Shown here: in pieces, positions 3,503 to 44,844 of the stretch | Numbering within the stretch: the first letter of the stretch is position 1 | Layout of the letters: every line of letters starts with the position of its first letter | DNA from: Fidelibacterota bacterium | GTDB taxonomy: Bacteria > Pseudomonadota > Alphaproteobacteria > Rhodospirillales > Rhodospirillaceae | Direction: 5' to 3' | DNA length: 44,844 nucleotides | Assembly (NCBI GenBank): GCA_947475295.1 | Contig: CANJLF010000021.1 | Coordinates: 1-44,844, forward strand | The notes under the pieces: model-generated | What the model was told of the DNA's origin: nothing | The model's input: the letters and a program-made list of their open reading frames with translations, nothing else | Database searches by the model: none | Translations under genes and position numbers: made by a program

Positions 3503-4561
3503 CTATTTGGTGAAGCGTTCGAGTTCCCGCCGACGCACGACCGCGCCCAACAGCGCCCCATTGTAGAAGCTGATCGCCTCCGCGCCGCTTGGATCGTTGG
3601 TGGTGGCCTCGGTATCGGGAATGAAGGCCGTGATCTCGCCGGTCGTGGCACTGCCGATCCGTATACCCTTTTTCCAACCTGGATTGCGATCACCGCCGGA
3701 TTCGGAATCGGTCACATACATCGTGCCGTCCTTGGCGATCATGATGCCGCTGGGCCGGCCCCACTGCTTCCATACCGCGATCAGGCCGCCGTCCTGGTCG
3801 AACACCGAGATGCGGTTGTTGCCCCGGTCACAGACAAACAAATGCTCTTGTGCATCGAAGGCAAGGCAATGGGGGATTTTCACCTGGCCCGGCGCGGTAC
3901 CGCCGGTGACGATGGTCTTGATGAAAGCGCCGTCTTTGGTGAACTTGCTGATGCGGTTGGCGATCTCGCCGTCATGGCCTTCGGCGATAAAGATCTCGCC
4001 CTTGCTATTGATGATGACTGCGGTGGGTTGAGTGAAAAGCCCCTTATCCGGTGTGCCGGCGACGCCTGCGCGCCCCAGCGCCATCAGCTGTTTTCCACCC
4101 TTGTCGTATTTCAGAACCTGGCTGCCTAGACCGGGCGGTGTTCCGCCGGTGGTGGTTCCGGCGCCCGCGGCGTCGGTGAACCAGATGTCGCCGTTGGACT
4201 CCATGAAGTAGCCGTGGGGAAAAGCGAACAGGCCAACGCCCCAGGTCTTCACGACCTGACCGCTCGCATTAAAAACCAGAACCGGCGGCTCTTTGCGGCC
4301 AACGCAGGAATTCTCGAAACAGCGGTGCGACACGTAGAGCAAGCCATCGGGACCCGGCAGCGCTCCGACCACCGCGCCCCATGGCATGCCGGCGGGCAGC
4401 TTGGCCCAATCGATGGTGCGCGCCGGATAGGGATTAGGAAGGCCGTCGCCCACAGGCTTTGGGTTGGCCTCGCCTTGCCGGATGGTCTGGGCAAAAGACC
4501 CGGCGCCGAAGAACATGAATACGGCAGCAAATGTAATGCGTGCGAATACAGGAATAGCCAT
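3503..4561 (-). CDS. Exported NHL-repeat beta-propeller protein
   Basis: The 352-residue protein begins with a signal peptide (hydrophobic stretch to about residue 23, cleavage near GSFA-QT). The rest forms repeated NHL-type blades, for example FPHGYFMESNGDIWFTDA, QPTAVIINSKGEIFIAEG, IPHCLAFDAQEHLFVCDR and RPSGIMIAKDGTMYVTDS. Such six-bladed propellers bind ligands or partners; some relatives act as peptidyl-alpha-hydroxyglycine amidating lyases, but I see no proof of that activity here. It is divergent from the cytochrome c gene with about 100 bases between starts, and a second NHL protein lies at 7949. The likely location is the periplasm. The function is not known. Confidence 0.85.
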   Translation of the reverse strand: MAIPVFARITFAAVFMFFGAGSFAQTIRQGEANPKPVGDGLPNPYPARTIDWAKLPAGMPWGAVVGALPGPDGLLYVSHRCFENSCVGRKEPPVLVFNASGQVVKTWGVGLFAFPHGYFMESNGDIWFTDAAGAGTTTGGTPPGLGSQVLKYDKGGKQLMALGRAGVAGTPDKGLFTQPTAVIINSKGEIFIAEGHDGEIANRISKFTKDGAFIKTIVTGGTAPGQVKIPHCLAFDAQEHLFVCDRGNNRISVFDQDGGLIAVWKQWGRPSGIMIAKDGTMYVTDSESGGDRNPGWKKGIRIGSATTGEITAFIPDTEATTNDPSGAEAISFYNGALLGAVVRRRELERFTK

Positions 4562-7948: not shown

Positions 7949-9214
7949 ATGAGCAACCGTAAGAATTCGCGACTTTATCGCAATTTTTTAATAGGTGCAG
8001 GATTTGCAGCGCTTCTGGCCGGTCTGATGGCTGCACAGTCCGGATTAAAGAACAGCGCCGCTGCCGCAGCTGCCGGCGCGGCGGTTCAGGCGCCGCGCTT
8101 CGAAGTTGATCCGCTCTGGCCGAAGCCCCTGCCGAACCACTGGATCCTGGGTTCCGCCATCGGCGTCTGGGTCGACACCGACGACCACGTATGGATCATC
8201 CATCGCAGCTCCGCGACGTTGGCCGCCAACGAAAAGACGCTTGAAACGAAGCAGGGTGAATGCTGCGCCGGCGCGCCGCCCGTGCTCGAGTTCGATCAAG
8301 CTGGCAATCTGCTGCGGCATTGGGGCGGGCCCGGCGAGGGCTATGATTGGCCCGAGTCCAATCACGGCATTTTTATCGACTACAAGGGCAACGTCTGGAT
8401 CGGCGGCAACGGCGGCGGTGACTCTCAGATTCTGAAGTTCACCAAGGACGGCAAGTTCCTTATGCAGGTCGGCAAGAAAAATGCGCGCCGCAAGCCAGGC
8501 GCGGTAGCGGGCGGCAACGAAGGCGACGTCAACGGTTTTGTCGGCGGCAGCAACGACGAAGTGAGCTTCGGCCGTGTTGCCAAGATCTTTGTCGACCAAA
8601 AGGAGAATGAGGCCTACATCGCAGACGGCTATCTCAATAAGCGTGTGGCCGTTATTGACGCCGACACCGGCAAGATGAAGCGTTGGTGGGGCGCTTACGG
8701 CAATAGGCCGGATGATACGCCGCTGGCGGCCTACGATCCGGCAATGCCTCCGGCGCAGCAATTCCGCAACCCGGTGCACTGCGCCGATCTTTCGGTCGAC
8801 CGGCTGCTATACGTCTGTGACCGCGTCGGCGACCGGATGCAGGTGTTTACGCCCGAAGGCAAGTTCGTGAAGGAAGAGTTTTACGAGAAAAATACACTAA
8901 ACGCGGGCTCCGTCTGGGACATCGCATTCTCCAAGGATCCGCAACAGCGGTTTATCTTCATGGCGGACGGCGTGAACGAGAAGGTCAAGATCATCGATCG
9001 CCAAACGCTGAAGGAGATAACGACTTTCGGCGACGGCGGCCGCCAACCCGGGCAGTTCTTCGGCGTGCATAGCATCGCCATCGATTCCAAGGGCAATCTC
9101 TATACGACCGAGACCTACGAGGGAAAGCGGCTCCAGCGGTTCAACTATAAGGGTCTCGCGCCTGTGACCAGGTTGAACCAAGGCATGGAAGGTCTCTGGC
9201 CTGCGTCCAAATAA
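7949..9214 (+). CDS. Exported NHL-repeat beta-propeller protein
   Basis: The 421-residue protein has an N-terminal signal or anchor segment (FLIGAGFAALLAGLMAA) and then the FEVDPLWPKPLPNHWILG start typical of a family of bacterial exported propellers. Blades follow, such as SNHGIFIDYKGNVWIGGN, ILKFTKDGKFLMQVGK, ADGYLNKRVAVIDADTGKMK and VHSIAIDSKGNLYTTETY. The start at ATG 7949 is preceded by GGGAGGGAAC. It is not closely similar by eye to the other NHL protein at 3503-4561 apart from the repeat type. The function is unknown; partner binding or catalysis in the periplasm are both possible. A strong hairpin follows the stop codon. Confidence 0.82.
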   Translation: MSNRKNSRLYRNFLIGAGFAALLAGLMAAQSGLKNSAAAAAAGAAVQAPRFEVDPLWPKPLPNHWILGSAIGVWVDTDDHVWIIHRSSATLAANEKTLETKQGECCAGAPPVLEFDQAGNLLRHWGGPGEGYDWPESNHGIFIDYKGNVWIGGNGGGDSQILKFTKDGKFLMQVGKKNARRKPGAVAGGNEGDVNGFVGGSNDEVSFGRVAKIFVDQKENEAYIADGYLNKRVAVIDADTGKMKRWWGAYGNRPDDTPLAAYDPAMPPAQQFRNPVHCADLSVDRLLYVCDRVGDRMQVFTPEGKFVKEEFYEKNTLNAGSVWDIAFSKDPQQRFIFMADGVNEKVKIIDRQTLKEITTFGDGGRQPGQFFGVHSIAIDSKGNLYTTETYEGKRLQRFNYKGLAPVTRLNQGMEGLWPASK

Positions 9215-9230
9215 GTCGCCGCGTTTCATC

Positions 9231-9272: not shown

Positions 9273-10565
9273 GCGGTCGCCGCGCTCTGGACGGTGCCTA
9301 TTCTTGCCCACGACATCCCGATGGATGTGACGGTACGGGCCTTCGTCAAGCCCGAGGGACACACTCTGCGCCTTCTGCTGCGTATGCCGCTCAAAGCTAT
9401 GACGGACGCCGAATATGCACGCCGCGAACGGGATTTTGTGGATCTTGCGCGCGTCGATCAATCTCTGCGCGACGCCGCAAAGATCGCACTGGTTGACAAC
9501 ATCTCCCTCTACGAGGGCGACGCTTTACTTGCACCTCCCACGATCGTCGAAACGCGCATGTCGCTGGAATCGGACACATCGTTCGCCGCCTACGACAAAG
9601 CCCTGGCGCACGTTACTGGTCCGCCGCTGTCCGCGGAGGCAACGATCTTCTGGGAGCAGGGACTTCTTGACGTCCTCCTCGAATATCCCATCCAATCTGA
9701 TCGATCGAATTTTTCCATCAAAGCGGACCTCGATCGGCTGGCGCTCAAGGTTGTTACTTCGCTTCACTTCCTCCCGCCCGGCGGGGTCGACCGTGCCTAC
9801 GAACTCGAGAACAACGCGGGCCTGGTTAGGCTTGATCCCCGATGGACCCAGGCCGCCGCGCGATTTATCGACCTCGGATTCCTTCACATCCTCGATGGCA
9901 CGGATCATCTGTTATTCCTGCTCTGCCTCGTTATCCCATTCCGGCGCGCACGCACTGTCATTCCGATCGTCACGGCATTTGCCGTAGCACATTCGGTCAC
10001 GCTCATCGCCTCGGCGTTCAACTTCGGCCATGATGCTCTATGGTTCCCGCCGCTGATCGAGACGCTGATCGCGATGTCCATCATCTACATGGCGCTTGAG
10101 AACATTGTCGCACCACAGATGCGGCTGCGTTGGATCATCACTTTCGTCTTTGGTCTCGTGCACGGATTCGGGTTTTCTTTCGGCCTTCAGCACACGCTTC
10201 AGTTCGCGGGATCGCATCTGCTGACCTCGCTGATTGCGTTCAATGTCGGCATCGAACTCGGCCAACTGCTTGTGCTGGCGGTGCTTATCCCCATCCTGGA
10301 CGTCCTATTCTGCTACGTCGTCGCCGAACGCCTGGGAACGGTCATCCTGTCAGCCATCGTCGCCCATACGGCTTGGCACTGGATGATCGAGCGGTTCGAT
10401 GTGCTGCGGCAGTTCCCGTGGCCGGAGCTCTCTTTCACGCTTGCCGCCGCCATGGACTGGCTCATCGCTTTCGTGGCGATAGCGGCGGGTATCTGGTTGG
10501 TGAGTCTCACCCGGGGGCGCGCGAGCGCATCGCCCGCGGACGAGGCGGAGGATCTGAAGCGCTAA
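9270..10565 (+). CDS. HupE/UreJ-like integral membrane protein
   Basis: The protein has an exported N-terminal domain of about 200 residues beginning HDIPMDVTVRAFVKPEGH. A membrane domain follows with the HupE/UreJ_2 hallmarks: FLHILDGTDHLLFLLCL, TAFAVAHSVTLIAS, FVFGLVHGFGFSFGL and AFNVGIELGQLLVL, with about six to seven membrane spans and several in-membrane histidines. HupE-like proteins are metal (Ni2+) permeases, but this long subfamily is not characterised. The start is uncertain: 9270 is a TTG that leaves an abnormal signal peptide. The frame stays open upstream to 9177 with no ATG or GTG, and would supply a better n-region (GRVLLCRLVLFLAVAALW). It converges with the SDR gene. Confidence 0.75.
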   Translation: MAVAALWTVPILAHDIPMDVTVRAFVKPEGHTLRLLLRMPLKAMTDAEYARRERDFVDLARVDQSLRDAAKIALVDNISLYEGDALLAPPTIVETRMSLESDTSFAAYDKALAHVTGPPLSAEATIFWEQGLLDVLLEYPIQSDRSNFSIKADLDRLALKVVTSLHFLPPGGVDRAYELENNAGLVRLDPRWTQAAARFIDLGFLHILDGTDHLLFLLCLVIPFRRARTVIPIVTAFAVAHSVTLIASAFNFGHDALWFPPLIETLIAMSIIYMALENIVAPQMRLRWIITFVFGLVHGFGFSFGLQHTLQFAGSHLLTSLIAFNVGIELGQLLVLAVLIPILDVLFCYVVAERLGTVILSAIVAHTAWHWMIERFDVLRQFPWPELSFTLAAAMDWLIAFVAIAAGIWLVSLTRGRASASPADEAEDLKR

Positions 10566-31933: not shown

Positions 31934-31934
<1 letters not shown>

Positions 31935-33346
31935 TATTCTTTGGCTTTCTCTTTCTCGACTCTAGCTTGTAGAACTTTCTTGAGTTCCGTTCTGTATTCT
32001 CGGTACCAGGCTGCGAACCCCTCACGTACTTCCTGGCGCGCGGAATTGATCGCCAGCGCATTGGCCGGCACGTCCTTCCTCACCACCGCCCCTGCCCCGG
32101 TCATGGCGCCGTCGCCGATCTTCACCGGCGCAACGAGCACGGTGTTGGAGCCGATCGATGCGCCGGCGCCGATATCGGTATGGGACTTGGTGAAGCCGTC
32201 GTAATTGGCGGTGATGGTGCCGGCGCCGATATTGGCCTTGGCGCCGACGCGCGCATCGCCGACGTAGGACAGATGGTTGACCTTGGCGCCGTCTTCAAGA
32301 TGCGCGTTCTTGATTTCGACGAAATTGCCCACATGGGCGTCTTTGCCGACGACGGCCCCGGGACGCAGCCGCGCATAGGGACCGATCACGGCACCCGCCG
32401 AAATATGCGCGCCTTCCAAATGGCAGAAAGCCTTGATCGTGACGTTGTCGTCGACCACGACCCCAGGACCGAAGACCGCGAAGGGTCCGATCTCGACATC
32501 GCGGCCGATTTTGGTATCTGCGGAGAGAAAGACCGTCTCGGGCGCAACCAGCGTGGCGCCGTTTTCCATGGCGCGGCGGCGCAAACGCCGCTGGAAAATC
32601 GCCTCGGCTTCGGCCAGTTCGATGCGGCTGTTGATGCCAAGCAGTTCTTCGGTATCGCCTTCCACCACGGCGCAACCCAGTCCGGCCTTGCGCGCGAAGC
32701 CGACGATGTCGGTGAGATAGTATTCGCCCTTGGCATTGTTGGGCCGCACATCGGCCAGCAAGTCCCACAGTTCCTTGGCGTCGGCCAGCATGATGCCTGA
32801 ATTGCACAGGCGTACTTCGCGCTCGGCGGGCGTTGCGTCCTTGGCTTCGACAATGCGTTCCAGACCGCTCGCGCCGACAATCAGGCGGCCGTAGGCGGCG
32901 GGATCTTGGGGCGAGAAGCCCAGCACCACGACGGACGGTTTTTGGCCGTTCTTGTTTTCGCGCAGCCGCGCGGCGCGCATCTTGCGCAAAGTCTCCGGCG
33001 CAACGAAGGGGGTGTCGCCGTAAGCAATCAGGATGTCGCCCTTGAACGCCGCTAAAGCATCCTTGGCTTGCAGCACGGCATGGCCGGTGCCGAGCCGGTC
33101 TTTCTGCATGACGCAGACGCTGGGCGCCACCGCCTTGGCCACGGCGTCCATATCCGGCCCTATCACCACCACCACCGGCGCGATCTCGGCTTCAGCCAGG
33201 GTGCCCAGCACGTGCGCGACCATGGGCCGGCCGGCAATGGCATGCATGACCTTGGGCAAGGCCGAGCGCATGCGGCTGCCGATACCGGCGGCCAACACGA
33301 TTGCCGCCGTCGGTGCGGCCGTGGGAGGTGACTGATCTGAGGCCAT
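31934..33346 (-). CDS. glmU: Bifunctional UDP-GlcNAc pyrophosphorylase / GlcN-1-P acetyltransferase
   Basis: The 470-residue protein has an N-terminal uridyltransferase domain (AIVLAAGIGSRMRSALPKVM, then RLGTGHAV). A left-handed beta helix of hexapeptide repeats follows from about residue 250 (for example DTKIGRDVEIGPFAVFGPG and HVGNFVEIKNAHL), ending in the acetyltransferase site. It catalyses the last two steps to UDP-GlcNAc. It is the first gene of the minus-strand glmU-glmS-gor unit and lies next to the tRNA-Val integration site. Confidence 0.97.
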
Positions 33347-33744: not shown

Positions 33745-33819
33745 GGGCGGTTAGCTCAGCGGTAGAGCACACCCTTCACACGGGTGGGGTCACAAGTTCA
33801 ATCCTTGTACCGCCCACCA
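33745..33819 (+). tRNA. tRNA-Val (anticodon CAC)
   Basis: The 75-base gene folds into a full cloverleaf. The acceptor stem GGGCGGT pairs with ACCGCCC, the D stem GCTC pairs with GAGC, the anticodon stem CACCC pairs with GGGTG around the loop TTCACAC (anticodon CAC, valine), and the T stem ACAAG pairs with CTTGT around TTCAATC. The CCA end is encoded. The 3' 47 bases recur at 35934 and, with one inserted base, at 44486, marking this gene as an integration target. Confidence 0.96.
33772..33818 (+). repeat. Attachment-site core, copy 1 (within tRNA-Val)
   Basis: This 47-base segment runs from the anticodon stem (CCCTTCACACGGGTGGGG) to the ACC of the 3' end. Copy 2 at 35934-35980 differs at two positions; copy 3 at 44486-44533 differs at about four and has one inserted base. 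The copies are in direct orientation, as expected for attL/attR-type sites of elements that integrate at tRNA 3' ends. Confidence 0.88.
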
Positions 33820-33842
33820 TTCTCCCAATGACCTCGAAAGCC

Positions 33843-33931
33843 GCGGAAAGCGCGGGTTTTGGCGCGTTAACACCATGATCCCTGGAACCCGGAATCAAGC
33901 CTCAAAATGCGGTGTTGGGGGCGCGGGTTAC
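33843..33931 (+). repeat. Left-end repeat S, copy 1 (89 bp)
   Basis: Identical to 36005-36093 except for one base (C versus G in AACAC[C/G]ATGATC). It begins GCGGAAAGCGCGGGTTTTGG and ends GGGGGCGCGGGTTAC. A GCGCGGGTT 9-mer lies near each end (33850-33858 and 33921-33929). It starts 24 bases after the tRNA end in both modules and is absent after the third tRNA copy, so it belongs to the element and not to the original tRNA flank. Confidence 0.9.
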
Positions 33932-33993
33932 GTGCGAATTACTCGGAAAACCCCTCACACACAAACGTAAGCGATATTTCGCCTAATCCTGCA

Positions 33994-35481
33994 TCACAAA
34001 GAAATTGATTCTCGAACGAGCTGCGCCAAGTCAGTCCGCAATTTACCGGAAATATTGCGGCCTATACTTGTGTTAATAATATTTTCCTGCTCCCGTGGGT
34101 CTTTCTGTAAGTCGTACAGCTCGTCGTATTCAGGATACATATTCCAGTGAACATATTTGTGATGATCTGTTCGAATGGATTTGTAGTCGGCATCAAGAAC
34201 CCATGGGAAGGGTAAATCATCGCTAAAGTTCTCTATTAAAACGGACGAGCGTTTTTCGGCCTTCCCATAACCTTTTGCTAACAATGGCACGAACGACCTC
34301 CCCTGAACGTGGCTTCCGATCGTAGCCTTACCAAAATGCAGGATCGACGGCGCGATATCTATCATTGAGACAAGCGAGCTCACTAACATTCCAGGCTCAA
34401 TTGCGGTGGGATATCTCACAAGCAACGGAGACCGAATAGACTCTTCGTAAGGAAGACGCCTTTCAACACTTAAGCCATGCTCGCCGAAGAAATATCCATT
34501 GTCGCTAGTAAAGATAATCACAGTATTCTCCAGCGTACCGGCTTCCTCTAGTGCCGCCAGAATTCGCCCAACGCTCTCGTCGACCGAAAGAATCATTTCA
34601 GCTCGATCGCGAATGCTTTGCTCGCTTGTGCCGGGATCAAGGATGGGTCCGAACTCCTTCATTATTTCCGGAGAATTCTTTCTTTCTAAGAATTTCCGCA
34701 CCATAACGCTGCCAAGCGTCCCCTCCATCGCTGATTTACTAATCTGCGAGCGCGGGAAGACTTCGTTCTTGTAAAGATCCTTATGTCTGTCCGCTGGGAT
34801 GTATCGATTGCCATACTCCGTATCTACAGATCCGTCGTTTCTCTGAATGGCATCAGGGTGAACGGCTTTGTGAGCGAGGTGAAGAAAGTATGGGCGTGAA
34901 CCATTTCTTTGATCGCTAATGAACTTCAAAGCTCTATCCGTCAAAATATCAGTGACGTATCCCTTAACTGTATCAAGCCTTCCATTCTCGAATATTTTGG
35001 GATCCATAATCTTTCCTTGCCCCGGAAAGCTCACCCAATAGTCGAAGCCGGGCCGTTGTGTGGGATCATTTCCCATATGCCATTTTCCGACATGAGCCGT
35101 CTTGTAGCCCGCACGCTGAAGCTCTTGAGGAAATGTTTTTAAAATATGACTCAAAGCATCACGACTAGCGTTGTTATAAACGCCATGCCGCGCGGTGTGC
35201 TGCCCCGTAAGAATGCACGCGCGATTTGGTGAACATAATGGAGTCGCGTGAAACGCTCTTGAGAATGTTGCACCTTCTCTTACTAACCGATCAATGTTCG
35301 GTGTTTTGAGATATGGGTGTCCGGCGGCACTAAATTCGTCCCACCTAAGATCGTCTACTAAAATCAAAATTATGTTCGGCGGCGCGGTCTTTGCTTGAGT
35401 TGCCAATACCCTCGTTGACCGGTTTGCGGCCAGGGCTACACCACCTGCACCGACCAAACTCAACGCCCTTCTTCGATTCAT
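33994..35481 (-). CDS. Sulfatase (formylglycine-dependent, alkaline-phosphatase fold), exported
   Basis: The 495-residue protein starts with a Tat-like signal (MNRRRALSLVGAGGVALA). It has the sulfatase core: the metal-binding PNIILILVDDLRWDEF, Cys83 in CSPNRACILTG (the CxPxR site converted to formylglycine), HVGKWHMG, and IIFTSDNGYFFGEHG with the second metal pair. The site has Asn where Ser, Thr or Ala is most usual, but CxPxR is kept. It would hydrolyse a sulfate ester outside the cytoplasm; the substrate is unknown. I prefer ATG 35481, with GGAG upstream, over GTG 35505. No formylglycine-generating enzyme is encoded in the window. Its base composition suggests transfer. Confidence 0.9.
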   Translation of the reverse strand: MNRRRALSLVGAGGVALAANRSTRVLATQAKTAPPNIILILVDDLRWDEFSAAGHPYLKTPNIDRLVREGATFSRAFHATPLCSPNRACILTGQHTARHGVYNNASRDALSHILKTFPQELQRAGYKTAHVGKWHMGNDPTQRPGFDYWVSFPGQGKIMDPKIFENGRLDTVKGYVTDILTDRALKFISDQRNGSRPYFLHLAHKAVHPDAIQRNDGSVDTEYGNRYIPADRHKDLYKNEVFPRSQISKSAMEGTLGSVMVRKFLERKNSPEIMKEFGPILDPGTSEQSIRDRAEMILSVDESVGRILAALEEAGTLENTVIIFTSDNGYFFGEHGLSVERRLPYEESIRSPLLVRYPTAIEPGMLVSSLVSMIDIAPSILHFGKATIGSHVQGRSFVPLLAKGYGKAEKRSSVLIENFSDDLPFPWVLDADYKSIRTDHHKYVHWNMYPEYDELYDLQKDPREQENIINTSIGRNISGKLRTDLAQLVRESISL

Positions 35482-35757
35482 AAAAACAACTCCAATGAAG
35501 CTCACCCAATCAGTGATCCATCGTGAGGCATGCTACGCAAAACGGCAATAGCGGAAAGGGCATTCATAGGAAGAGATCGTTGCCAAGCTGCGGCAAGTTG
35601 ATGTTTTCACTACAGCCTGACAGATAAGGCACCCGCCAGTTGAAGCGCTGCCTTAGGCTCCCGCCCGCCAACTTCTGTTGCGCAAAACTTTTCACCATTG
35701 CAAAGCTTCGTCTACATCACTCTAACGCGCAGCTAGACCTATCCATGGTTCAAGTAA

Positions 35758-35980
35758 TTCGCGGGTTCCTCTCGGGTTACAGGTTCTAGATTTCCAGGGA
35801 GTTCAGCAGAATTTCGAATATTGCGCCGGATTCCACATCATTGCGACGTCGGGCCCCGCGCGAAACGCGGAATTCCGCATCACTGCGGTGAAATCCACGG
35901 CTCCCTAAGCAATTGGCGAACATGGCAATTTCGCCCTTCACACGGGTGGGGTCACAAGTTCAATCCATGCACCGCCCACC
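35758..35980 (+). repeat. Right-end repeat R, copy 1 (includes tRNA-Val 3' fragment)
   Basis: It aligns over its full length with 44310-44533, with about 14 differences by eye and one single-base indel. It begins TTCGCGGGTTCCTCTCG and ends with the 47-base tRNA-Val copy. Inside it a 16-mer, ATTCCACATCATTGCG at 35830 and ATTCCGCATCACTGCG at 35872, is directly repeated at a 42-base interval, and GCGGAATTCCGC is a 12-base palindrome. Confidence 0.9.
35934..35980 (+). repeat. Attachment-site core, copy 2 (partial tRNA-Val)
   Basis: The tRNA-Val 3' segment is repeated with two substitutions that break the T stem (CTTGT becomes CATGC). The 5' half of a tRNA is absent, so this is a remnant and not a gene. 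Confidence 0.88.
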
Positions 35981-36004
35981 GGTTCCATAAAGATCTCGAG
36001 ATCG

Positions 36005-36093
36005 GCGGAAAGCGCGGGTTTTGGCGCGTTAACACGATGATCCCTGGAACCCGGAATCAAGCCTCAAAATGCGGTGTTGGGGGCGCGGGTTAC
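36005..36093 (+). repeat. Left-end repeat S, copy 2 (89 bp)
   Basis: 88 of 89 bases match 33843-33931. Like copy 1 it lies 24 bases after the end of the tRNA-Val segment. Confidence 0.9.
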
Positions 36094-36214
36094 TCGCGGG
36101 GGACTTGGAGAGATGATCGGCCGAGCCCGACAGACTTTTCACATGCTTGCAGACCGCCCAAGGCCCCCCTTTAAGAAGGTGGCCTTGAACGGTTTCCGCA
36201 TCAGCAGTGTCAGG

Positions 36215-37816
36215 CTATTTTTTTGGTTCCGTGCAAACAAAATTCTCGGCCACATTGGTGTCGCCGGCACCTTTGTAGCGCGCCATTTGCGGATAGGGGC
36301 AGAGCGGACGCGTCATCTTCACGCCGGCGCTCTGCTTGTCATCGACATACTTTGTCGCAACAACCTGTGTGGGTACGATCCCCTTGTCCACCCATGCTTC
36401 AAGGGCCGGCAGCATATCGAAGGTATTCGGTCCGGGACCTCTGCGGCAGTGTCCCATGGCTGGCACCATGAACAAACGGTAGAAGCTATCGGTTTCCGCC
36501 TGGGCTTTTGCGGCACCGTGCTTTTTGCCCTGGTCCGCAACTACATTATCATAATAGTTGACGGAGTTTTGTGCGGGAATATCCGGATCGCCAAGGCCGT
36601 GATAGTGCATGATCTTGCCGCCACGGGCCTTGAATTTTTCGAGGTCAGGTTCTGATGCATTGAGGACGTATGCAATGGTCTGGCCCGGCACAACTTCCTT
36701 TTTCTCGACATAGTCGATGCTTTGTTTGGTCCATTTCCAGCTGTGGATGTCCCAGTTGGGATCGTCGAATACGAAGTATTTGAAGAATGGGAATCCCTGC
36801 CTACCGTGCTCACCGCCGTAGGGAAAATCGCTGGAGAGCGTGTTAGGCCAATTCTCCGCCTCACCGCCAAGATCGAAACCCGGATAATAGCCGGCCGGAA
36901 CACGGCTACCGGGGCCGGCGTAAAATTTCGTGACGGCCTGCACCTGCTCCGGCGACAGACATGTCTTCGCGGCCTGGCCGGGCTTGCACAGCATCGCTTC
37001 GGAGTTGAACTTGCAGGCGCGCGGATCGCTTATGATACCGTCCTTAATGCCGTCCTTGGCATCGCACGCCTCATTGAGCACCTTGCCTACAATCGGCGCG
37101 GTCCAGTCCGGCAGAATGGAGTTGGGACCTTTGTCATAGAGAACGGAGGCCAGGTACAAATGCCCACCGATGTAGTGATTGGTGGTGTTGTAGCCTGGGG
37201 CGCCAACGATGATGCCATCGTAATCCTCGGGATAGCGCTGAGCCTCCAGCATCCCTTGACGGCCACCCTGGGAGCAGCCGGTAAAATAAGACCGCGAAGG
37301 CGCCTTGCTGTAGAAAGCCTTAACAAACAACTTGGACTGCTCGGTCATCAGGTGAACGGCACGATACCCCCAATCGATAATTTTTTCCGGGTGTCTATAT
37401 GCAAAAGTCCCATCCGAGCCCCAGTGGCCGGTATTGGTATTCGCCACGGCGTAGCCGGCCCTCACCATTGTAGCCATCGCGCCGTAACTGATGGAGCCCG
37501 AAAATCCGCCATTGCCGACCCCGACAAATTTTCCGTTCCAGCCCGCGCTTGGCATCCAGACCTCATACTCGATGTCTGAATCGCTCGTCGGATGCGCCGC
37601 CACCGCGACGCGGCAGAAGGTCGGCATATTATCGAGAACGGTCCCATCGGCAGTCCTGTAAAGACCCGCCGCATTCGTTTGAACTGCGTGAACGTCAGAA
37701 TTGGGGGTCTTATAATCCCACAGCGCCTCGCACTCTATGGCCAGCGCCGGTGCAGCCAGCGCCGATGACGCCAATAGCACGGTGGAAAATGAAAAAATCA
37801 TTGACCTGCATTTCAT
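36215..37816 (-). CDS. Tannase / feruloyl esterase family protein, exported
   Basis: The 533-residue protein has a signal peptide (cleavage near residue 26, ALA-IE). It matches the tannase family (PF07519): nucleophile Ser182 in GCSQGGRQGM with the adjacent Cys181, Asp410 or Asp412 in HGLGDPDIPAQNS, and catalytic His456 followed by Cys457 in AMGHCRRGPG. The Cys181/Cys457 pair is the disulfide that joins Ser and His in this family. The calcium-loop-like CDAKDGIKDGIISDP lies in the lid. It would hydrolyse gallate, ferulate or similar aromatic esters in the periplasm or outside the cell. It is divergent from the TonB receptor gene, 781 bases away. Confidence 0.9.
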   Translation of the reverse strand: MKCRSMIFSFSTVLLASSALAAPALAIECEALWDYKTPNSDVHAVQTNAAGLYRTADGTVLDNMPTFCRVAVAAHPTSDSDIEYEVWMPSAGWNGKFVGVGNGGFSGSISYGAMATMVRAGYAVANTNTGHWGSDGTFAYRHPEKIIDWGYRAVHLMTEQSKLFVKAFYSKAPSRSYFTGCSQGGRQGMLEAQRYPEDYDGIIVGAPGYNTTNHYIGGHLYLASVLYDKGPNSILPDWTAPIVGKVLNEACDAKDGIKDGIISDPRACKFNSEAMLCKPGQAAKTCLSPEQVQAVTKFYAGPGSRVPAGYYPGFDLGGEAENWPNTLSSDFPYGGEHGRQGFPFFKYFVFDDPNWDIHSWKWTKQSIDYVEKKEVVPGQTIAYVLNASEPDLEKFKARGGKIMHYHGLGDPDIPAQNSVNYYDNVVADQGKKHGAAKAQAETDSFYRLFMVPAMGHCRRGPGPNTFDMLPALEAWVDKGIVPTQVVATKYVDDKQSAGVKMTRPLCPYPQMARYKGAGDTNVAENFVCTEPKK

Positions 37817-38597
37817 GAATTATCTCCCCGAAGACCATTGAGTGATGCACACATTTATCAAAGATACTGTTTACTCACACGTAAAATCATCAGCGCCGAC
37901 GGGATCATCGCGTCCGCGTTTTGCCATCTACGCGTTGGTCAGCAGGGTCAAGATAACGTCTGCAAAACCGATGGCGACGGTCGCCAGAGTAGGCGAAAGT
38001 GAATTCGGCATGTCCACTAGATGGAATGAGCTTATTTTATTGTAGAAGCGCGCGCTACCTGCCCCGACAATCTGGCCCCTCGCTCGAGGGCGTTGTTCCG
38101 GGCGCGTTCCGGGCGCGTTCCGGGCGCGTGCCGGGAGTATTCGAAGGCACATAAATGCGACCTCTTGGGCAGGTTCTAGCTCGCGAATTTTAGACCAAAA
38201 CCGAAATGGGGCCATGCGGCAGCGAGGATAAATAAACGGGAGAAGTGTGCCTTGATCTCGGGAAACAGGGATATCGGCGGGCTAGGAAACTCTTGTTCAT
38301 CGCGTACTGCCAGAAAATCCGGGAAAGTACCGCCCGAAGTTGCCAGGGACGGCCCTGACGGCTACAATGTTGCCCGAAACCGGGGTTCATCTGGGGAATG
38401 TCGGTTTATACGACGCCGGTGATTTTTTTGACCTTCGACCGTTTCCGGAATTTCCTAGGAAGTTTCTGGCGAGTGCGCGATGGCGGGCGTCAATTGACCG
38501 AACAGGCCCCTCATAAGTACGACCCGTCAAGTCCTGGAAGCTTCGGCGAAGCCCCGGCGGAATAGGAAATTTAGGTTCTAGAGCCATAAGGGTGCAA
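37817..38597. other. 781-bp divergent intergenic region, tannase / TonB receptor
   Basis: The region should hold the two divergent promoters. It contains an 11-base tandem repeat (38095-38136) and short open frames on both strands that I do not believe are genes. One minus-strand frame ends PTLATVAIGFADVILTLLTN (about 37928-38008) and might be a decayed fragment, but it has no recognisable identity. Confidence 0.5.
38095..38136 (+). repeat. 11-bp tandem repeat, three copies plus a partial one
   Basis: GTTCCGGGCGC occurs at 38095-38105, 38106-38116 and 38117-38127, followed by a degenerate GTGCCGGGA. The 11-base period is close to one helical turn, so it would place sites on one DNA face; it may be an operator array or simple slippage. 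Confidence 0.85.
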
Positions 38598-41288
38598 ATG
38601 ATTGGGGACAAAAAGCGAATCACGGTGTTGGCATGCGCGCTTAACGCCGCAGGAATCCCGCTCTGCCAGGCGGCCGACATAGGCCAGGGTGCGGCCTTCG
38701 AGGAGGTTGTGGTCACCGCACGCAAGCGCGAAGAAAATATCCAGGCCGTTCCCATCTCTATCACGGCTTTCACGGCCGAAGATCTGGAACGCAATAACGT
38801 CAAGACTTTGGCTGATCTGCGCTTGGTCACACCCTCGGTGCAGGTCCAGCCCGACACCTTTCGCCAAGACACTATCAATATCACCGTACGCGGGCTCAGA
38901 AATTTTCCCCGCAGCGGTATTCAATTCGATACTGCGACGGCGGTCTATATCAACGGGCTTTATTATGCGCGCACGTCAGGCCTAACGGCAGCGCTGATTG
39001 ACGTCGACAGCGTTCAGGTATTGAAGGGTCCGCAAGGCACGCTTGTCGGCCGCAACGCCACCGGCGGCGCGGTGCTATATACCACCCGCGAACCAGAAGA
39101 TAAATTCGGCGGTTACGTGACTCTGACCGCGGGTGACTACGGGCGCTATGAGACTCAGGCTGTGGTGAACGTGCCCTTGGGCGAAAAACTAGCTATGCGC
39201 GCGGCGTACTCTTATTCCGAGACCGCGGGGTATCTGAAAAATATTTACTTCGACCCCGCGACCGGTGAGCGCAATGACACGCCTGGAGCTGGCGCACGCA
39301 AAACAGCAATGCTCTTCTCGCTGAAATGGCTGCCGGATGATGTTTCTAAACTTGTTCTGCGCGGCGACTTCGACGCTGAACACTATACCGGATCGTCATA
39401 CCATCTCCTGAATTCCTTCGAGGGCACGCAACCGTCCACCGGGGCCATCGGCTCTAATATCCAGCCTGTGTCCCGTCCGTCGATCTGCAATATTCCCATG
39501 ACCTGCAATCAGGTCACCGATTTGCGCGGCCGCGTGATAGCGCCCTATTTCAGCGACGTCACCGCGCGCACCGTTAACACTGACCCGCGCTCTTACAATG
39601 CTCTGTTGAATTCCCTCGCGCGCCAGCAGGCGGGCAGCTTCTGGACTATCGACCAGGCCGAAAACAACTATAGCAGCGGGCACTTTCAATCAGTGTCTGG
39701 CACCTACGACCGAAGTTTCGGTAGTATTGGCATGAAATTGATGGGCGGCTATCGCTGGACCGACAGTCGCACGCTCTATTACAGCCGAGGGGCTCCGTAC
39801 GCGACCTTGCAAAACGAAGGGGCTGATCCCGACTACAATGCATACACCTCTGAATTGACATTCAACGGCAGTCTCCTCGATACCCAGCTCAATTGGACCG
39901 CCGGCGCCTTTTTCTTTGCCGAAAGCGTGTCGCAGCAGGGCAATCGGGACTATCTGTTTTCAACCAATCAGGTTCGCCCACAACCGGTATCCGGCCGCCA
40001 GATCACGCTGGCCGACACCACAGCAAATGCCGGCAAAAATACCAGTTACGCCGGTTATGGCCAGGCCACTTACAGCATTCGGCCCGATCTGCGTTTTACA
40101 GCCGGGGTGCGCTACTCGATCGATGAACGCAAGGCCCACATCGCTTCCTTTAGCACGCGGTTCCCGGCCACGGCGGCCACCACAGCGGCAATTCCAAACA
40201 GTGTTTTCAATCCTGGCACCTATGTCTTCAACGGCATCTCCTATCAGGGTTATTCGCGATCCTGCGCTCTTTCGGACGCCAATGGAGTCCTACGCCCCAT
40301 CGATGCCTGTTTCATTGACGTCAAGCGGACATTCCGCGATCCAACGTGGACGCTATCTCTGGACTATGACCTGTTTGACTCGACCATGGTCTATTTCACC
40401 TCGCGTCGCGGCTACAAATCCGGCGCGCTGAACAGCGGGGCCAACAACGCCGCCGTGGTAGTAGCGCAGCCGGAAAAAGTTCAAGACTATGAGATCGGCG
40501 TAAAGTCGGATTGGTCCATCGCCGGCATGCCGGTCCGCAGTAACTTTGCCGCCTACCTCACCACTTACAAAAATATCCAGGCGCAGGCTGGCCTGCCCTA
40601 CGTGATTTTTGCCACCGGCCCCAGCGGCGTGCCGTGTACGCAGGCCCTTTACAACGCGGGTCAGTGCACCGGCGCGTCCACGGAAAACGTCACACTCAAT
40701 GCCCGCGCTGCGCAGGTTTATGGCGGAGAGTGGGATGTAAAAGTCAAACCCGTCCCGGAATTGACGCTGTCGTGGAACGGAAGCTATGTGCATGCGAAGT
40801 ACACCGACTTCAGCTTCACCCCGCCGGCGGGATATCTGCAACCCGCAACCGGCGGCTCGCTCACGGGGCAGGCGTTTCCACTGCCCGCTTGGACGATGTC
40901 GGCGTCCGCAACTTATTCTGTCACCGGCGAACAGATCGGTTTGCCCGTTAGGGATTTAGCACTAACTGCCAGCGCCTATAATCAGAGCAATTATCGCACC
41001 GCCTTGGTCGGTTACAATCGGTCGCAACAGACATTGGGCTATACCTTGGCCAGTCTGCGTTTGGCAGTGCAGGACATCGCCAACACCAACGTTGATCTTA
41101 GTGCGAACGTTAGCAATCTTTTCAACACCAAGGCTTGTTACGCCGAGTTCGGCGGAACGGGCGGCGGCGGCGGCGTACTGGCGTCCACTCCCAACGCGAC
41201 CTTTGGCGTGCCCAACACGAGCGGCGTGGTGCAGTGCTATCCCCTGCCGCCACGCATGTTCGCTCTCAGCCTACGCTATGCGTTCTAG
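38598..41288 (+). CDS. TonB-dependent outer-membrane receptor
   Basis: The 896-residue protein has a signal peptide (to about residue 25, CQA-AD) and a TonB-box-like FEEVVVTARKREENIQAVPI. The plug domain includes NITVRGLRNFP, VDSVQVLKGPQGTLVGRNATGGAV and LYTTREP, and a large beta barrel ends in the aromatic FALSLRYAF. It resembles the receptor class often annotated as OMR or FecA-like in sphingomonads and related alphaproteobacteria, which take up plant-derived compounds as well as siderophores. Given the tannase and PQQ dehydrogenase neighbours, uptake of an aromatic or glycosidic substrate is a reasonable guess. ATG 38598 is preferred to GTG 38592. No anti-sigma/sigma pair is nearby. Confidence 0.93.
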   Translation: MIGDKKRITVLACALNAAGIPLCQAADIGQGAAFEEVVVTARKREENIQAVPISITAFTAEDLERNNVKTLADLRLVTPSVQVQPDTFRQDTINITVRGLRNFPRSGIQFDTATAVYINGLYYARTSGLTAALIDVDSVQVLKGPQGTLVGRNATGGAVLYTTREPEDKFGGYVTLTAGDYGRYETQAVVNVPLGEKLAMRAAYSYSETAGYLKNIYFDPATGERNDTPGAGARKTAMLFSLKWLPDDVSKLVLRGDFDAEHYTGSSYHLLNSFEGTQPSTGAIGSNIQPVSRPSICNIPMTCNQVTDLRGRVIAPYFSDVTARTVNTDPRSYNALLNSLARQQAGSFWTIDQAENNYSSGHFQSVSGTYDRSFGSIGMKLMGGYRWTDSRTLYYSRGAPYATLQNEGADPDYNAYTSELTFNGSLLDTQLNWTAGAFFFAESVSQQGNRDYLFSTNQVRPQPVSGRQITLADTTANAGKNTSYAGYGQATYSIRPDLRFTAGVRYSIDERKAHIASFSTRFPATAATTAAIPNSVFNPGTYVFNGISYQGYSRSCALSDANGVLRPIDACFIDVKRTFRDPTWTLSLDYDLFDSTMVYFTSRRGYKSGALNSGANNAAVVVAQPEKVQDYEIGVKSDWSIAGMPVRSNFAAYLTTYKNIQAQAGLPYVIFATGPSGVPCTQALYNAGQCTGASTENVTLNARAAQVYGGEWDVKVKPVPELTLSWNGSYVHAKYTDFSFTPPAGYLQPATGGSLTGQAFPLPAWTMSASATYSVTGEQIGLPVRDLALTASAYNQSNYRTALVGYNRSQQTLGYTLASLRLAVQDIANTNVDLSANVSNLFNTKACYAEFGGTGGGGGVLASTPNATFGVPNTSGVVQCYPLPPRMFALSLRYAF

Positions 41289-41299
41289 CCTACGTTAAA

Positions 41300-41336
41300 G
41301 CGGGGCCAGCACCAGTCCGAAGACTGGTGGGTCCCG
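41300..41336. terminator. Hairpin between convergent TonB receptor and PQQ dehydrogenase genes
   Basis: CACCAGTC (41310-41317) and GACTGGTG (41322-41329) form a perfect stem with loop CGAA. An outer GCGGGGCC/GGTCCCGC stem with one G-T pair extends it. There is no clear U-tract, so it may act as a transcript-end or stability hairpin and not as a classical terminator. Confidence 0.45.
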
Positions 41337-41353
41337 CCCCAGCACGGCCCGGC

Positions 41354-43519
41354 TTATCGTCTCTCTGGCAGAGCAAACACATATAGCTGATTGCCCGTCC
41401 TTGGATACAGAATGTCCTCGGCTATGGTGTCGGGCACGTTACGCGGGCTGCCTCCGCCTTGTCCGGTCGAGACGGCAATGTACTGCTTTCCGTTTGCCGT
41501 AAACGATACGGGAAAGCCCTGCACAGACGATCCAAGGCGCGTAGACCACAAATCTTTGCCGGTCCTTGTGTCGACTGCGCGGAACATACGGTCGAGGCTG
41601 CCCACAAATGAAACGCCCGAATCCGTGCTCAAAACCGCCGTGAGAAAGGGCGCGCGTTGTTCACGAGCCCAGACTTCTTTCATTGACCTGACGTCGTACG
41701 CGGCGAGCTTTCCCATCCGGCCGTCTTTTCCAGGCATTTCATAGAACTTCCGATCTATCGAGCCGCCCCTGCCATCCTCCTCAAGCGCCGGATCGTAACC
41801 CGTTTCGTCCATACAGCTCTGGCTGAGAGGGATTACGAGCAACTGCGACTTTGGATCGAAGCTCATGGCCTGCCAGTTGTGCCCGCCTTCGGTGCTGGGA
41901 CATACCGCAATCCAATCGCCGGCTTTCTGATTTATGATGTCATCGCGATATTTTGGCTCCCCAGTGACCGGATCAATCCGCTCAAAAATATTCTGGAATA
42001 CTGTCTCCGTGGACGCGATGTACTTACCGTTGGTGCGATCCAGCTTCCACAAGATGCCGACCTTGCCGACCGTAAACAATGTTTTACTGCCGTCGATATC
42101 GACAAGCACGCGTTCGTAGACCTCGTCCATATCGAGCGTCTCGCCAGGCGCATGTTGGAAGTACCACTCCAACTTCCCGTCTTCAGGTCGCAGCGCAAGG
42201 GTCGCACTTGTGTACAAGGCCTTGTCCGCCACCTTCATTCCGCGCGAGACCGCAAGATGTGGCTTCGGCTGCGCAACGCCCCAATACATGAGGTTCAATT
42301 CCGGGTCGTAGCTCCCGGTGATCCATGTTTCACCGCCGGCACGGAAGATATCTTTCAGGTTGTTCCATGTGTCGCCGCCCGGCGCGCCCTCCCGGGCTGT
42401 CGTGTAGAATTTCCACAATTCCTTGCCCGTATCGGGATCGTAGGCGCTGATAAAGCAGCCTGCGGCGCGATATTGCGCGCAGCCGCCCAGTCCCTGAACA
42501 ATTCGGCCGTTTGCGACCAGCGGGCCACTGGTGTTCAGATATCCCTGCGAGGGATCGGCGATTTGCGTTTGCCATTTCAGCTCGCCGTTTTTGGCGTCAA
42601 ACGCCACGAGACGCGCATCATTGGTCGCAAGGTATATCTTGTCCTTGTAGATGGCCATATTGCGTAAGGCCGTGCTCGACTGGGGCCCGAGCCGATTCTC
42701 CCAAATCAACTCGCCGTTTGTCGCGTTGAGGGCCTGAACGATATGCCCGCAATTCACAAGGTACATGATCCCGTTATGCACAAGCGGCGTCGGCTGATTG
42801 CGGCCGCCACCGACGCACTCGGTCATCGCCCACGCCCAGTTTAGCTGGAGTCCGCCCACATTTGCCGGCGTGATTTGCGGGAGCGTGGTGTGGCTCCAAG
42901 CTTGGTAATTGTTTCTTACCATCAGCCAGTCACCTGGATCAGGCTTACGAAGCATCGCGTCGGTGACCTCGACGTAGTTCTCGACAACGCCCTTAACAGT
43001 GAGTCCGGTGGCGCCGGTCAAGGGTCTTGCCCTGCGATTCTCGTCCGGAGCTTCGGGCGCAGCCCGACCCGCCGTTACACTCTCGGCAACCGTTGGCGCT
43101 GAGCCGCTGGTGTTCGCGCCAATGATGAGGGTCGATTGCGCCGTCAATTGGGCGGTACTGGCAGGAACCCTATTATGCTGCAGTATGTAGGCCGCGAGCG
43201 CGACATTCCCATCAGGACCTGCAGCGCCCGGGTTCGACATTGGCATCGTGGAAATTTTCTCCACGAGTTCCTGTGCAGTGCGCTGCCTCCATTTTGTCAT
43301 AAATGCGGATCCGGCGAGGGCAGGAGATTCGCTTTCCCCACCGCCGGACAAATCTGGGCGGTGGCAGCTTTGACAGAGGGCTTCATAGTGCTGGCGCCCG
43401 GCGGCAGCCTGCTGCGCTGTATAAGTATCCGGCGCGGGACCAACCCGTTTCGTCGCGTAAAATGCCGCGATGCCAACAAGAGCAATCCCTGCAACGCTTA
43501 AAGCTACGATTTTACGCAT
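41354..43519 (-). CDS. PQQ-dependent dehydrogenase with N-terminal cytochrome c domain
   Basis: The 721-residue protein has an N-terminal signal/anchor (about residues 1-22), a cytochrome c domain with haem motif CQSCH (49-53) and a possible Met ligand in TMPMSNPG. A quinoprotein beta-propeller follows from about residue 195 ([20 protein letters not shown]) with tryptophan-docking blades such as [25 protein letters not shown] and GKDLWSTR, and [19 protein letters not shown]. Known quinohaemoprotein alcohol dehydrogenases carry the cytochrome at the C-terminus; here it is at the N-terminus. It would oxidise an alcohol or sugar in the periplasm and pass electrons to its own haem. The start overlaps the upstream CHRD stop by one base (TGATG), so the two are translationally coupled. 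Confidence 0.9.
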
Positions 43520-43959
43520 CACCGCTTCTCCTCAATGAACAGCCAGCCCCACAAATTTCCGTCCGGCGCTGCTTTGCTTTGAATTTGAATGTACAGTTTA
43601 CTTTTGGCCAGCGCTTCGACTTGGGATGGCGATAGCTCTACCGACCCTGAGACGGTTCCGGCTACATCCTGCGTCACAGTCAAAGGAAACAGGACTGGAC
43701 CGACTACGCCGGTGACAGGACTCATGCGCACGTTGGCGGTGGTGGCGGCCGAGGTGAGTCCGGCGAACGTGCCTGTAATGGTAAGGCGTTGTCCCGCAAG
43801 TTCGGCTGTGGCGGCCCCTTTACCAGCGACCGTGCGTTGCAGGACGGCGTTGAGGGGCAGGCGCGAAAGCGCCGCTTTGTATTTTTGCGTTTGTTGCGCC
43901 AGGGATGATCCAGCAGACGCTACGATCATTAAAGCGGCAATTGCCTGTATGAGTCTCAT
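43519..43959 (-). CDS. CHRD domain protein, exported
   Basis: The 146-residue protein has a signal peptide ([20 protein letters not shown], cleavage near LAQ). It then has a CHRD-type beta domain, seen in [40 protein letters not shown] and [14 protein letters not shown] domains are found in chordin and many secreted bacterial proteins and have no settled function. It is the first gene of a two-gene operon with the PQQ dehydrogenase, so it may support that enzyme as a structural or ligand-binding partner. I chose ATG 43959 because it gives the signal peptide. Confidence 0.82.
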
Positions 43960-44309
43960 GGTTAGTCCGACCCTCGATTGGAATACAAACGTTGCTTCAG
44001 AAGAGATCAAGTTGCGGGGGAGTCATTGAAACGATAACGAGACGCAAGTTGTGGAGGACTATGCGTGCTGGCGGGGACTGTTCGGCTGACGACCGAACGA
44101 GAGCTCGCCTCCATTAAAGTTCCAAAAAACTGCAAAATTCAGCGATGCCGACCCCCCCCCTCTCACCAACACTATAAAATACGCGCCCTATAATGTCCAC
44201 TTCGCACGCGAATGTACGGATGTGGAGTTATTTTCCCAGCCGACGCCGCTCCGCCTTTGGCCCGCAGAGCAAAGTCTGATCACTTTACGGAATTAACCGG
44301 CCCGAATAT

Positions 44310-44533
44310 TTCGCGGGTTCCTCTCGAGTTACAGGTTCCAGATTTCCAGGGAGTTCAGCAGAATTTCGAATATTGCGCCGGATTCCACATCCTTGCGACT
44401 TCGGGCCCCGCGCAAAACGCGGAATTCCGCATCACTAGGGTGAAATCCACGGCTCCCTAAGCAATTGGCGAACATGGAACTTTTGCCCTTCACACGGGTG
44501 GGATCACACGTTCAATCCTTGGTACCGCCCACC
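44310..44533 (+). repeat. Right-end repeat R, copy 2 (includes tRNA-Val 3' fragment)
   Basis: Full-length match to 35758-35980. The 16-base direct repeat at a 42-base interval is kept (44382 and 44424), as is the GCGGAATTCCGC palindrome. Confidence 0.9.
44486..44533 (+). repeat. Attachment-site core, copy 3 (partial tRNA-Val)
   Basis: Third copy of the tRNA-Val 3' end, with about four substitutions and one inserted base; the T stem no longer pairs well. It is not followed by repeat S, so it marks the outer end of the array. Confidence 0.85.
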
Positions 44534-44563
44534 GTTTCAAATAAAAGCCTAAGAGGCGGAACC

Positions 44564-44844
44564 TGTACGGCGTCAGCGCCTATGAGACAGAATTGGGGTG
44601 GTGAATTAGGGAGGGTTTTGGTCTCAACGTAGTGACGGAGGAACGAAGATGAGATCAAAGCCCATGACCACGAAGGCGCCTGCTGAGCGGGTACTCAAGG
44701 ACATACGCCGGGCGACCCGGCGGCATTTTTCAGCCGAAGACAAGATACGCATCGTACTGGACGGCCTGCGCGGCGAGGACAGCATTGCCGAGTTGTGCCG
44801 CCGCGAAGGTATTGCCCAAAGCCTCTATTACGTCTGGTCGAAGG
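44564..44844 (+). mobile_element. IS3-type insertion sequence, left part (runs off the window)
   Basis: TGTACGGCGTCAGCGCC at 44564 begins with TG, as IS3-family ends do, and lies 85 bases before an IS3-type OrfA. The exact end is an inference because the other inverted repeat is outside the window. Confidence 0.6.
44649..44844 (+). CDS. IS3-family transposase OrfA, 5' part
   Basis: The 65 visible residues include FSAEDKIRIVLDGLRGEDSI, AELCRREGIAQSLYYVWSK, the helix-turn-helix of IS3-family OrfA proteins (HTH_Tnp_1 type). GGAGG lies about seven bases upstream of the ATG. The gene is cut by the window end, so I cannot see the frameshift to OrfB or the DDE domain. Confidence 0.9.
   Translation, partial: MRSKPMTTKAPAERVLKDIRRATRRHFSAEDKIRIVLDGLRGEDSIAELCRREGIAQSLYYVWSK

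Follow-up and report, generated by a model that had tools for sequence, protein, structure and literature searches.

The contig CANJLF010000021.1 (C21), which is 44,844 bases long and was analysed as a whole (hereafter the window), belongs to a draft genome of 2.70 Mb in 43 contigs that is 97% complete. It holds a single tRNA gene, an intact tRNA-Val(CAC) that is divergent from a glmU-like gene and is followed by two direct copies of its own 3' end (35934-35980, 96% identity to query positions 28-74, and 44486-44533, 94%), the second lying 311 bases from the contig end. These core copies divide the region into two modules, each opening with a sequence termed S and closing with a sequence termed R: a 2.1-kb module 1 with the order S0-sulfatase-R1, and an 8.5-kb module 2, in which S1 is followed by a tannase, a TonB receptor, a PQQ (pyrroloquinoline quinone)/cytochrome c protein, a CHRD protein and R2 (Table 1). 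A first-pass annotation of the same DNA had described two modules bounded by tRNA-Val(CAC) and its 3' copies, both opening with S and closing with R, and this description is borne out in its coordinates and by the repeat alignments.

R together with the core aligns between the modules over 215 nt at 93% identity (35755-35969 and 44307-44521), and the core together with S over 176 nt at 88% (33772-33947 and 35934-36109); within S, the best-conserved 71 nt differ at one base (33861-33931 and 36023-36093), a likeness matched in none of 100 shuffles. The shared blocks measure about 112-123 nt for S and about 175-179 nt for R, so that S is longer than the 89 bp first assigned to it. The cargo is unrelated as had been stated, one sulfatase against four genes, whereas calling it "catabolic" was a guess from family names. 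Since the junctions in this 43-contig draft are repeats, separate pieces might have been joined artificially via tRNA-Val and S/R; this is very improbable, as the copies diverge by 7% and 12% overall and no identical run exceeds 57 bases, so that assemblers working with longer words would separate them. Alternatively, a single island may have undergone an att-att duplication and then a cargo swap by homologous recombination, for which the R and S alignments, each with its core, would be usable as homology. However, the longest identical runs between the copies are only 57 and 52 nt, which is short for efficient homologous exchange, and the cargo borders are unlike those at the loci of cargo relatives, which leaves this explanation improbable.

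Table 1. Features of the tRNA-Val array; positions refer to the window except in the last row, which refers to the phage contig named there.
Feature	Positions	Strand	Evidence
glmU-like gene, outside the array, upstream neighbour of tRNA-Val	31934..33346	-	Pfam hexapeptide + NTP-transferase
Intact tRNA-Val(CAC); its 3' 48 nt (33772-33819) are core copy 0	33745..33819	+	ARAGORN; Rfam 65.4 bits
S0, interpreted as P' arm; its arm pair (33922-33942) has 2 changes in the second repeat	33820..33942	+	Repeat comparison
Sulfatase, 503 aa, module 1 cargo	33994..35505	-	PF00884 E 1.8e-57
R1, read as P arm; arm pair 35760-35780	35755..35933	+	Repeat comparison
Core copy 1 (tRNA-Val 3' end, 96%)	35934..35981	+	
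S1, interpreted as P' arm; its arm pair (36084-36104) has 2 changes in the second repeat	35982..36104	+	Repeat comparison
Tannase/feruloyl esterase-like, 533 aa, module 2 cargo	36215..37816	-	PF07519 E 2.6e-117
TonB-dependent receptor, 898 aa, module 2 cargo	38592..41288	+	PF00593, PF07715
PQQ beta-propeller dehydrogenase-like, cytochrome c domain, 722 aa, module 2 cargo	41354..43522	-	PF01011, PF13442
CHRD-domain protein, 163 aa, module 2 cargo	43519..44010	-	PF07452 E 1.3e-9
R2, read as P arm; arm pair 44312-44332	44307..44485	+	Repeat comparison
Core copy 2 (tRNA-Val 3' end, 94%, one inserted base)	44486..44533	+	
attP-like layout on phage contig L246 (IMGVR_UViG_3300050513_000089)	3586-3860		

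In its own genome (2,704,752 bases), the R-core-S sequence has three strong matches, all at the tRNA-Val locus, the next reaching only E 0.24. Across 317 genomes of the order, R gave matches at E<=0.05 in 29 genomes, the strong ones being confined to the window locus and those outside the window spanning 18-42 nt with E of at least 0.0016. S matched in 32 of these genomes, the sole strong case outside the window being the congener G001 (85% over 136 nt, directly 3' of an intact tRNA-Val), and the remaining matches had E of at least 5e-4. With R-core-S as query, 64 of 148 relatives matched, nearly all across the tRNA core only. IMG/VR contained no exact match to patterns taken from S and R; one plasmid record and one phage record matched, both across the tRNA core alone. 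As the first-pass annotation had supposed, the ends are tied to tRNA-Val, and both the own genome and the order-wide set rule out that S and R are dispersed repeats.

A further possibility was that S simply belongs to the native sequence next to tRNA-Val, given that a terminator-like hairpin can form in S0 and that the intact tRNA of G001 is also followed by S. As the whole explanation, this was rejected: S also lies 3' of core copy 1, different genes come after S in G001, module 1 and module 2, S ends in an arm pair (see below), and there is no S after tRNA-Val in the relatives G018, G009 and G016. Neither S nor R follows tRNA-Val in the available sequence of these three genomes (1.6 kb in G018 and 0.5 kb in G009), which agrees with the empty sites in relatives that had been anticipated. 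Folding of four stretches of S and R was no better than that of shuffles (z -0.97 to 0.58), the S0 hairpin is not seen in the minimum-energy fold of S1, and Rfam reported nothing but the tRNA. In G051, from another genus, a weak R-like sequence precedes a tRNA-Val 3' fragment and no tRNA gene is present; there (L062, G051:C484, 10093-12652), the fragment and the R-like sequence border genes that appear HNH- or ATPase-like by eye, and the frames of the remaining 2.5 kb of the contig include no obvious integrase.

The end of S and the start of R each contain a pair of 9-bp direct repeats lying 11 bp, i.e., one helical turn, apart, with the consensus GCGGGTTAC-N2-GCGGGTTAC in the same orientation in S and R. 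The arm pair starts 103 bp after the core in both S copies and 174 bp before the core in both R copies. Searched with up to two mismatches, the pattern CGCGGGTTNCNNNCGGGTTAC hits the genome at the four module ends and nowhere else, each time on the plus strand, and the control hits it once; as the pattern had been read from these four ends themselves, the informative points are the lack of other matches, the common orientation and the spacing. Over 20 nt, the likeness of the G001 S to R1 and to R2 was reached by 0 and 1 of 100 shuffles, respectively, and that of S1 to R1 by 1. A perfect arm pair lies 103 bp after tRNA-Val in G001 and 101 bp after it in G015, and a pair with one change 208 bp after it in G007, while all four pairs of the window depart from the perfect repeat of G001 and G015 at 2-3 positions.

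Allowing one mismatch, the arm pair occurs at 15 loci of the 317 genomes. Five of them hold a tRNA gene in the fetched stretch, with the pair always 46-208 bp 3' of it on the same strand, locations having been tallied for the pair matches alone; three are tRNA-Val loci of the genus and two are tRNA-Lys loci in G054 and G069, and a sixth locus is R1 itself. The exact pair was found in 13 stretches of the genome collection, namely G001 (public contig CAISTS010000044.1), one Mesorhizobium, where it lies 92 bp after tRNA-Gly, and 11 stretches with no tRNA within 3 kb. We infer that the repeat pairs are arm-type sites for the arm-binding domain of a P4-type tyrosine integrase. At the two tRNA-Lys(CTT) loci, which belong to another genus, GTGGGTTACATGCGGGTTAC lies 46 bp after the tRNA (L152 of G054, 9200-9219; L153 of G069, 9927-9946) within several hundred nearly identical downstream bp. 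In G015 (L054, about 10080-10400), an apparent small AlpA/Xis-like frame, recognised by eye on the minus strand, lies beside the S-like arm pair, and no integrase is present among the frames listed up to tRNA-Met.

Two parallels clarify how such ends may be organized. In the congener G006, the tRNA-Val contig carries GGGTAACGCATGGGTAAC 48 bp after the tRNA, and on a second contig this pair recurs 149 bp upstream of a tRNA-Val 3' fragment; beside the pair starts a 413-aa integrase with arm DNA-binding (PF13356), central (PF22022) and catalytic (PF00589) domains. The two contigs would represent the two ends of one island, with the integrase just inside the R end and the arm repeats in its upstream region. 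On the phage contig L246, GCGGGTTACGCGCGGGTTAC is followed by 118 bp, a fragment resembling a tRNA (20.6 bits with the Rfam tRNA model, whose gathering score is 29), 46 bp and a second pair in the same orientation, which is less regular (GGGTTAC, GGTTAC); an integrase-like gene lies about 2 kb away (PHROG integrase E 5e-7; PF00589 E 4.7e-5, below the cut-off). In the intS module of the KplE1 prophage, arm-type sites and the integrase promoter overlap in a tRNA-adjacent attachment region (PMC2951348). On this evidence, the central R-core-S segment of the array is laid out like an attP.

An integrase belonging to the modules was sought at several levels. Pfam recognised no recombinase among the five cargo proteins, and when 64 integrases were compared with the modules by tblastn, a single match reached E 0.002, all others having E of at least 0.075. 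That match, which could have been a degenerate integrase N-terminus between the sulfatase and R1, was dismissed as chance: it covers 39 residues with two stops, and a DNA comparison of the stretch gave matches of 23-30 nt only. Hence, the earlier statement that neither module holds a recombinase stands; no convincing remnant of one was found, and neither module has its own tyrosine integrase beside a module end, as an autonomous P4-type tRNA island has. The own genome contains five PF00589 matches, none on contig C21. Two look like XerC and XerD, one on C2 is truncated by the contig end near tRNA-Phe with its upstream region beyond the contig, one on C27 is a short frame near tRNA-Arg, and the P4-like integrase on C22 has neither GGGTTAC nor GGGTAAC in the 700 bp upstream. 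An own-genome integrase acting in trans was set aside, as no arm-matched candidate emerged from an upstream scan that excluded the XerC/XerD-like pair and had no view of the C2 upstream region.

A census of integrases in the genus (110 rows by our own count, 18 of 19 genomes), from which XerC/XerD-like rows and a few weak ones were left out, led to the 64 loci, i.e., 60 fetched loci, G006:C34 and three of the own genome. None of them carries the arm sequences of the window, and the integrase responsible for the array was found neither in the 97% complete draft nor among these loci. G006:C34, described above, is the sole locus with both a tRNA-Val 3' fragment and arm-type repeats just upstream of the integrase. 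The integrase on G006:C207 adjoins an intact tRNA-Val and has no arm repeats, and that on G007:C137 has a pair 361-373 bp upstream, beside an apparent 3' part of another tRNA.

Collectively, the layout, the restriction to tRNA-Val, the paired repeats at fixed distance and orientation, the failure to find an integrase in the modules, the G006 and phage parallels and the occurrence of relatives of two cargo genes elsewhere, all directly observed, lead us to consider it fairly probable that the region comprises two integrase-less integrative elements in tandem at the tRNA-Val 3' end, an accretion array of islands resembling cis-mobilizable elements (CIMEs). The 47-48 nt of the tRNA 3' end would serve as the crossover core, and the attachment site of a tyrosine integrase would have S as its P' arm and R as its P arm. 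Most probably, a pair of islands sharing one integrase family inserted at tRNA-Val successively, one beside the other, which would yield the order tRNA-S-cargo-R-core-S-cargo-R-core; each island would either have been without an integrase from the start or have lost it later. The place just inside R that the integrase takes in G006 is occupied here by the sulfatase or the CHRD gene; therefore, an integrase was lost, replaced or never present. The core copies, at 96% and 94% with an inserted base, and the imperfect arm pairs argue that, judged from the letters of the array, present mobility is probably low and would at most occur with help from another element.

Several results weigh against this accretion reading. 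S and R resemble each other less in other combinations, the likeness being reached by 9 of 100 shuffles for S1-R2, 7 for S0-R2 and 46 for S0-R1, so that S0 alone shows nothing. The 15 arm-pair loci in the order fall below the 25 (our own count) of a reversed control, and their number is therefore not enriched; of the 13 stretches of the genome collection with the exact pair, only 2 have a tRNA close on its 5' side. Of three IMG/VR contigs with the exact pair, L246 alone has the attP-like plan, neither of the other two showing a tRNA in the part retrieved. Searches for R in G001, G015 and G007 found none, and the R-like sequence of G051 is weak and missing from the list of the R-only search. 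The arms of G006 read GGGTAAC, not GGGTTAC, and its two ends lie on different contigs, and no element combining these very ends with an integrase was found among the 64 loci. The separate element with the same ends and a tyrosine recombinase that the first-pass annotation had called for is thus matched by G006 in end plan and recombinase, not in arm sequence.

The first-pass annotation had favoured mobilisation of the modules by an integrase encoded elsewhere. Such trans-mobilisation is possible, and a working system of this kind would consist of minimal modules, each with a P' arm, cargo taken from genes of the genus and a P arm, whose insertion at tRNA-Val and removal from it would be carried out by an integrase that a different element of the same population encodes. 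In its favour, both complete modules lack an integrase, module 1 being a single gene; the two modules share S and R despite their different cargo; tannase and sulfatase have relatives at other loci of congeners; and an integrase-less island is known to be excised by unlinked host functions (PMC3191183). However, none of the loci examined has an integrase with the arms of the window, every arm pair departs from the perfect repeat, and no second genome with S-cargo-R was found among the 317. We therefore hold a working trans system to be unlikely, and the imperfect arms and integrase survey lend the earlier proposal no support. A tRNA-anchored cassette system in the full sense, with small units of P' arm, genus cargo (down to one gene) and P arm that are exchanged within a freshwater genus and stacked by the arm-binding integrase of another element, appears unlikely; if real, the array would work like an integron array, with tRNA cores in place of attC.

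The tRNA-Val site is hypervariable, which favours the accretion reading. A comparison of 29 tRNA-Val loci, 5 of which had less than 500 bp of downstream sequence, showed downstream genes common to few pairs only, and several tRNA 3' copies delimit cargo that varies between relatives, the variation being seen between species. A GlmU relative is found on 16 of 20 relative loci and on 9 of 20 in a second set, several of which have other tRNA-Val types or fragments. In G001, two contigs are alike over 134 bp (99%), a stretch extending slightly beyond the tRNA 3' end; from there one continues into S and the other does not, which fits a site occupied in part of the population or two tRNA-Val copies. 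In G018 (L057, 1309-1598), a 125-bp unit is repeated 2.3 times after tRNA-Val, the copies closing with GCGCCCACCA, which resembles the tRNA 3' end, and G009 (L049) and G016 (L055) each have one similar ending about 110 bp after tRNA-Val; these units are possibly a miniature repeat family using the same site. On G007:C208 (L061, 3796-3983), the first 47 nt of tRNA-Val are followed, about 70 bp further on, by another tRNA-Val(CAC), which is complete, differs from the first and is accompanied by an upstream region of its own, and then by an arm pair; a tRNA-Val of the same type exists in G011. It looks as if an element had brought a whole replacement tRNA gene there.

Composition differs along the window, again in favour of accretion, with a GC (guanine plus cytosine) fraction of 0.49 in module 1, 0.567 in module 2 and 0.605 in positions 1-33744. 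Whole-genome searches for relatives covered two of the five cargo genes, tannase and sulfatase. Tannase relatives occur in G018 (92%), G016 (90%), G009 (77%), G010 (72%) and G001 (64%), on contigs other than the tRNA-Val contigs (the tRNA-Val of G010 was not located), and the fetched stretches match the tannase part of module 2 only and not S; in G018 and G016, the likeness comprises the gene and about 55-65 bp past its stop. Two more distant tannase paralogues lie on C12 and C13 of the own genome. The sulfatase is arylsulfatase-like but below the NCBIfam cut-offs, and has one close relative in 314 genomes, in G016 (79%), beside an apparent transposase fragment, the third match being at 39%. 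As relatives of both genes sit at other loci in the genus, at least two cargo genes look drawn from a genus pool, the sulfatase looking like a member of that pool but of unusual composition. Pfam found no transfer genes among the five annotated cargo proteins, and no dedicated search for an origin of transfer was made. Beyond core copy 2, a repeat at 44563-44844 is common to G004 (96% over 148 nt) and G069 (69%) and resembles the start of an IS3-type insertion sequence; it probably caused the assembly to stop at the contig end.

Tandem islands of this general type have precedents, which contradicts the first-pass view of an undescribed system: the literature already describes islands stacked between repeated 3' ends of an RNA gene, and many of them have no integration genes (PMC3146451, PMC5704250). 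CIMEs lack integration and transfer genes, keep attL and attR and may stand in tandem at one site by accretion, and the modules of the window likewise keep both attachment ends, have no integration genes and are in tandem; CIMEs typically lie beside an integrative and conjugative element or an integrative and mobilizable element, whereas here both elements are without integrase and no helper was found (PMC5704250). A possible related autonomous element is that of G006, with the same plan and an integrase but different arm letters, and no arm-matched helper was found among the loci examined. At the ssrA gene of Dehalococcoides, tandem islands with metabolic cargo are bounded by the RNA gene and its 3' direct repeats, much as in the window, and 15 islands without an integration module were suggested to be CIMEs; they differ in their transfer-messenger RNA target, serine (CcrB-like) recombinase and 20-bp repeats (PMC3146451). 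The MccH47 island of E. coli resembles the modules in having att repeats and no recombinase of its own, its excision by host functions having been shown by polymerase chain reaction, but it is a single island and not at tRNA-Val (PMC3191183). In freshwater Methylophilaceae, the additive island fGI-2 is marked by repeated tRNA-Lys 3' ends (20 nt) and variable genes, a likeness to the window array that comes from lake bacteria; the tRNA is a different one, and S/R-like ends are not described in the available text, and tycheposons carry a tyrosine recombinase at the tRNA, unlike the window modules (PMC10872708). KplE1-type intS modules share arm-type sites beside the core that overlap the integrase promoter, especially with G006, and carry an integrase, which the window modules do not (PMC2951348). 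No paper with these S/R ends was met in the available portions of the open-licence literature.

Because the core, both arm regions with their constant distances and an arm sequence open to testing can be read from it, this compact and bounded array permits a direct test of whether integrase-less islands still move with help. As a search rule, looking for arm pairs shortly 3' of tRNA genes may also reveal islands missed by integrase-based finders. The type of array is already known, and the locus is a clear, compact and well-bounded further case, whose additions are arm pairs that keep their spacing across the two modules and a single-gene module.

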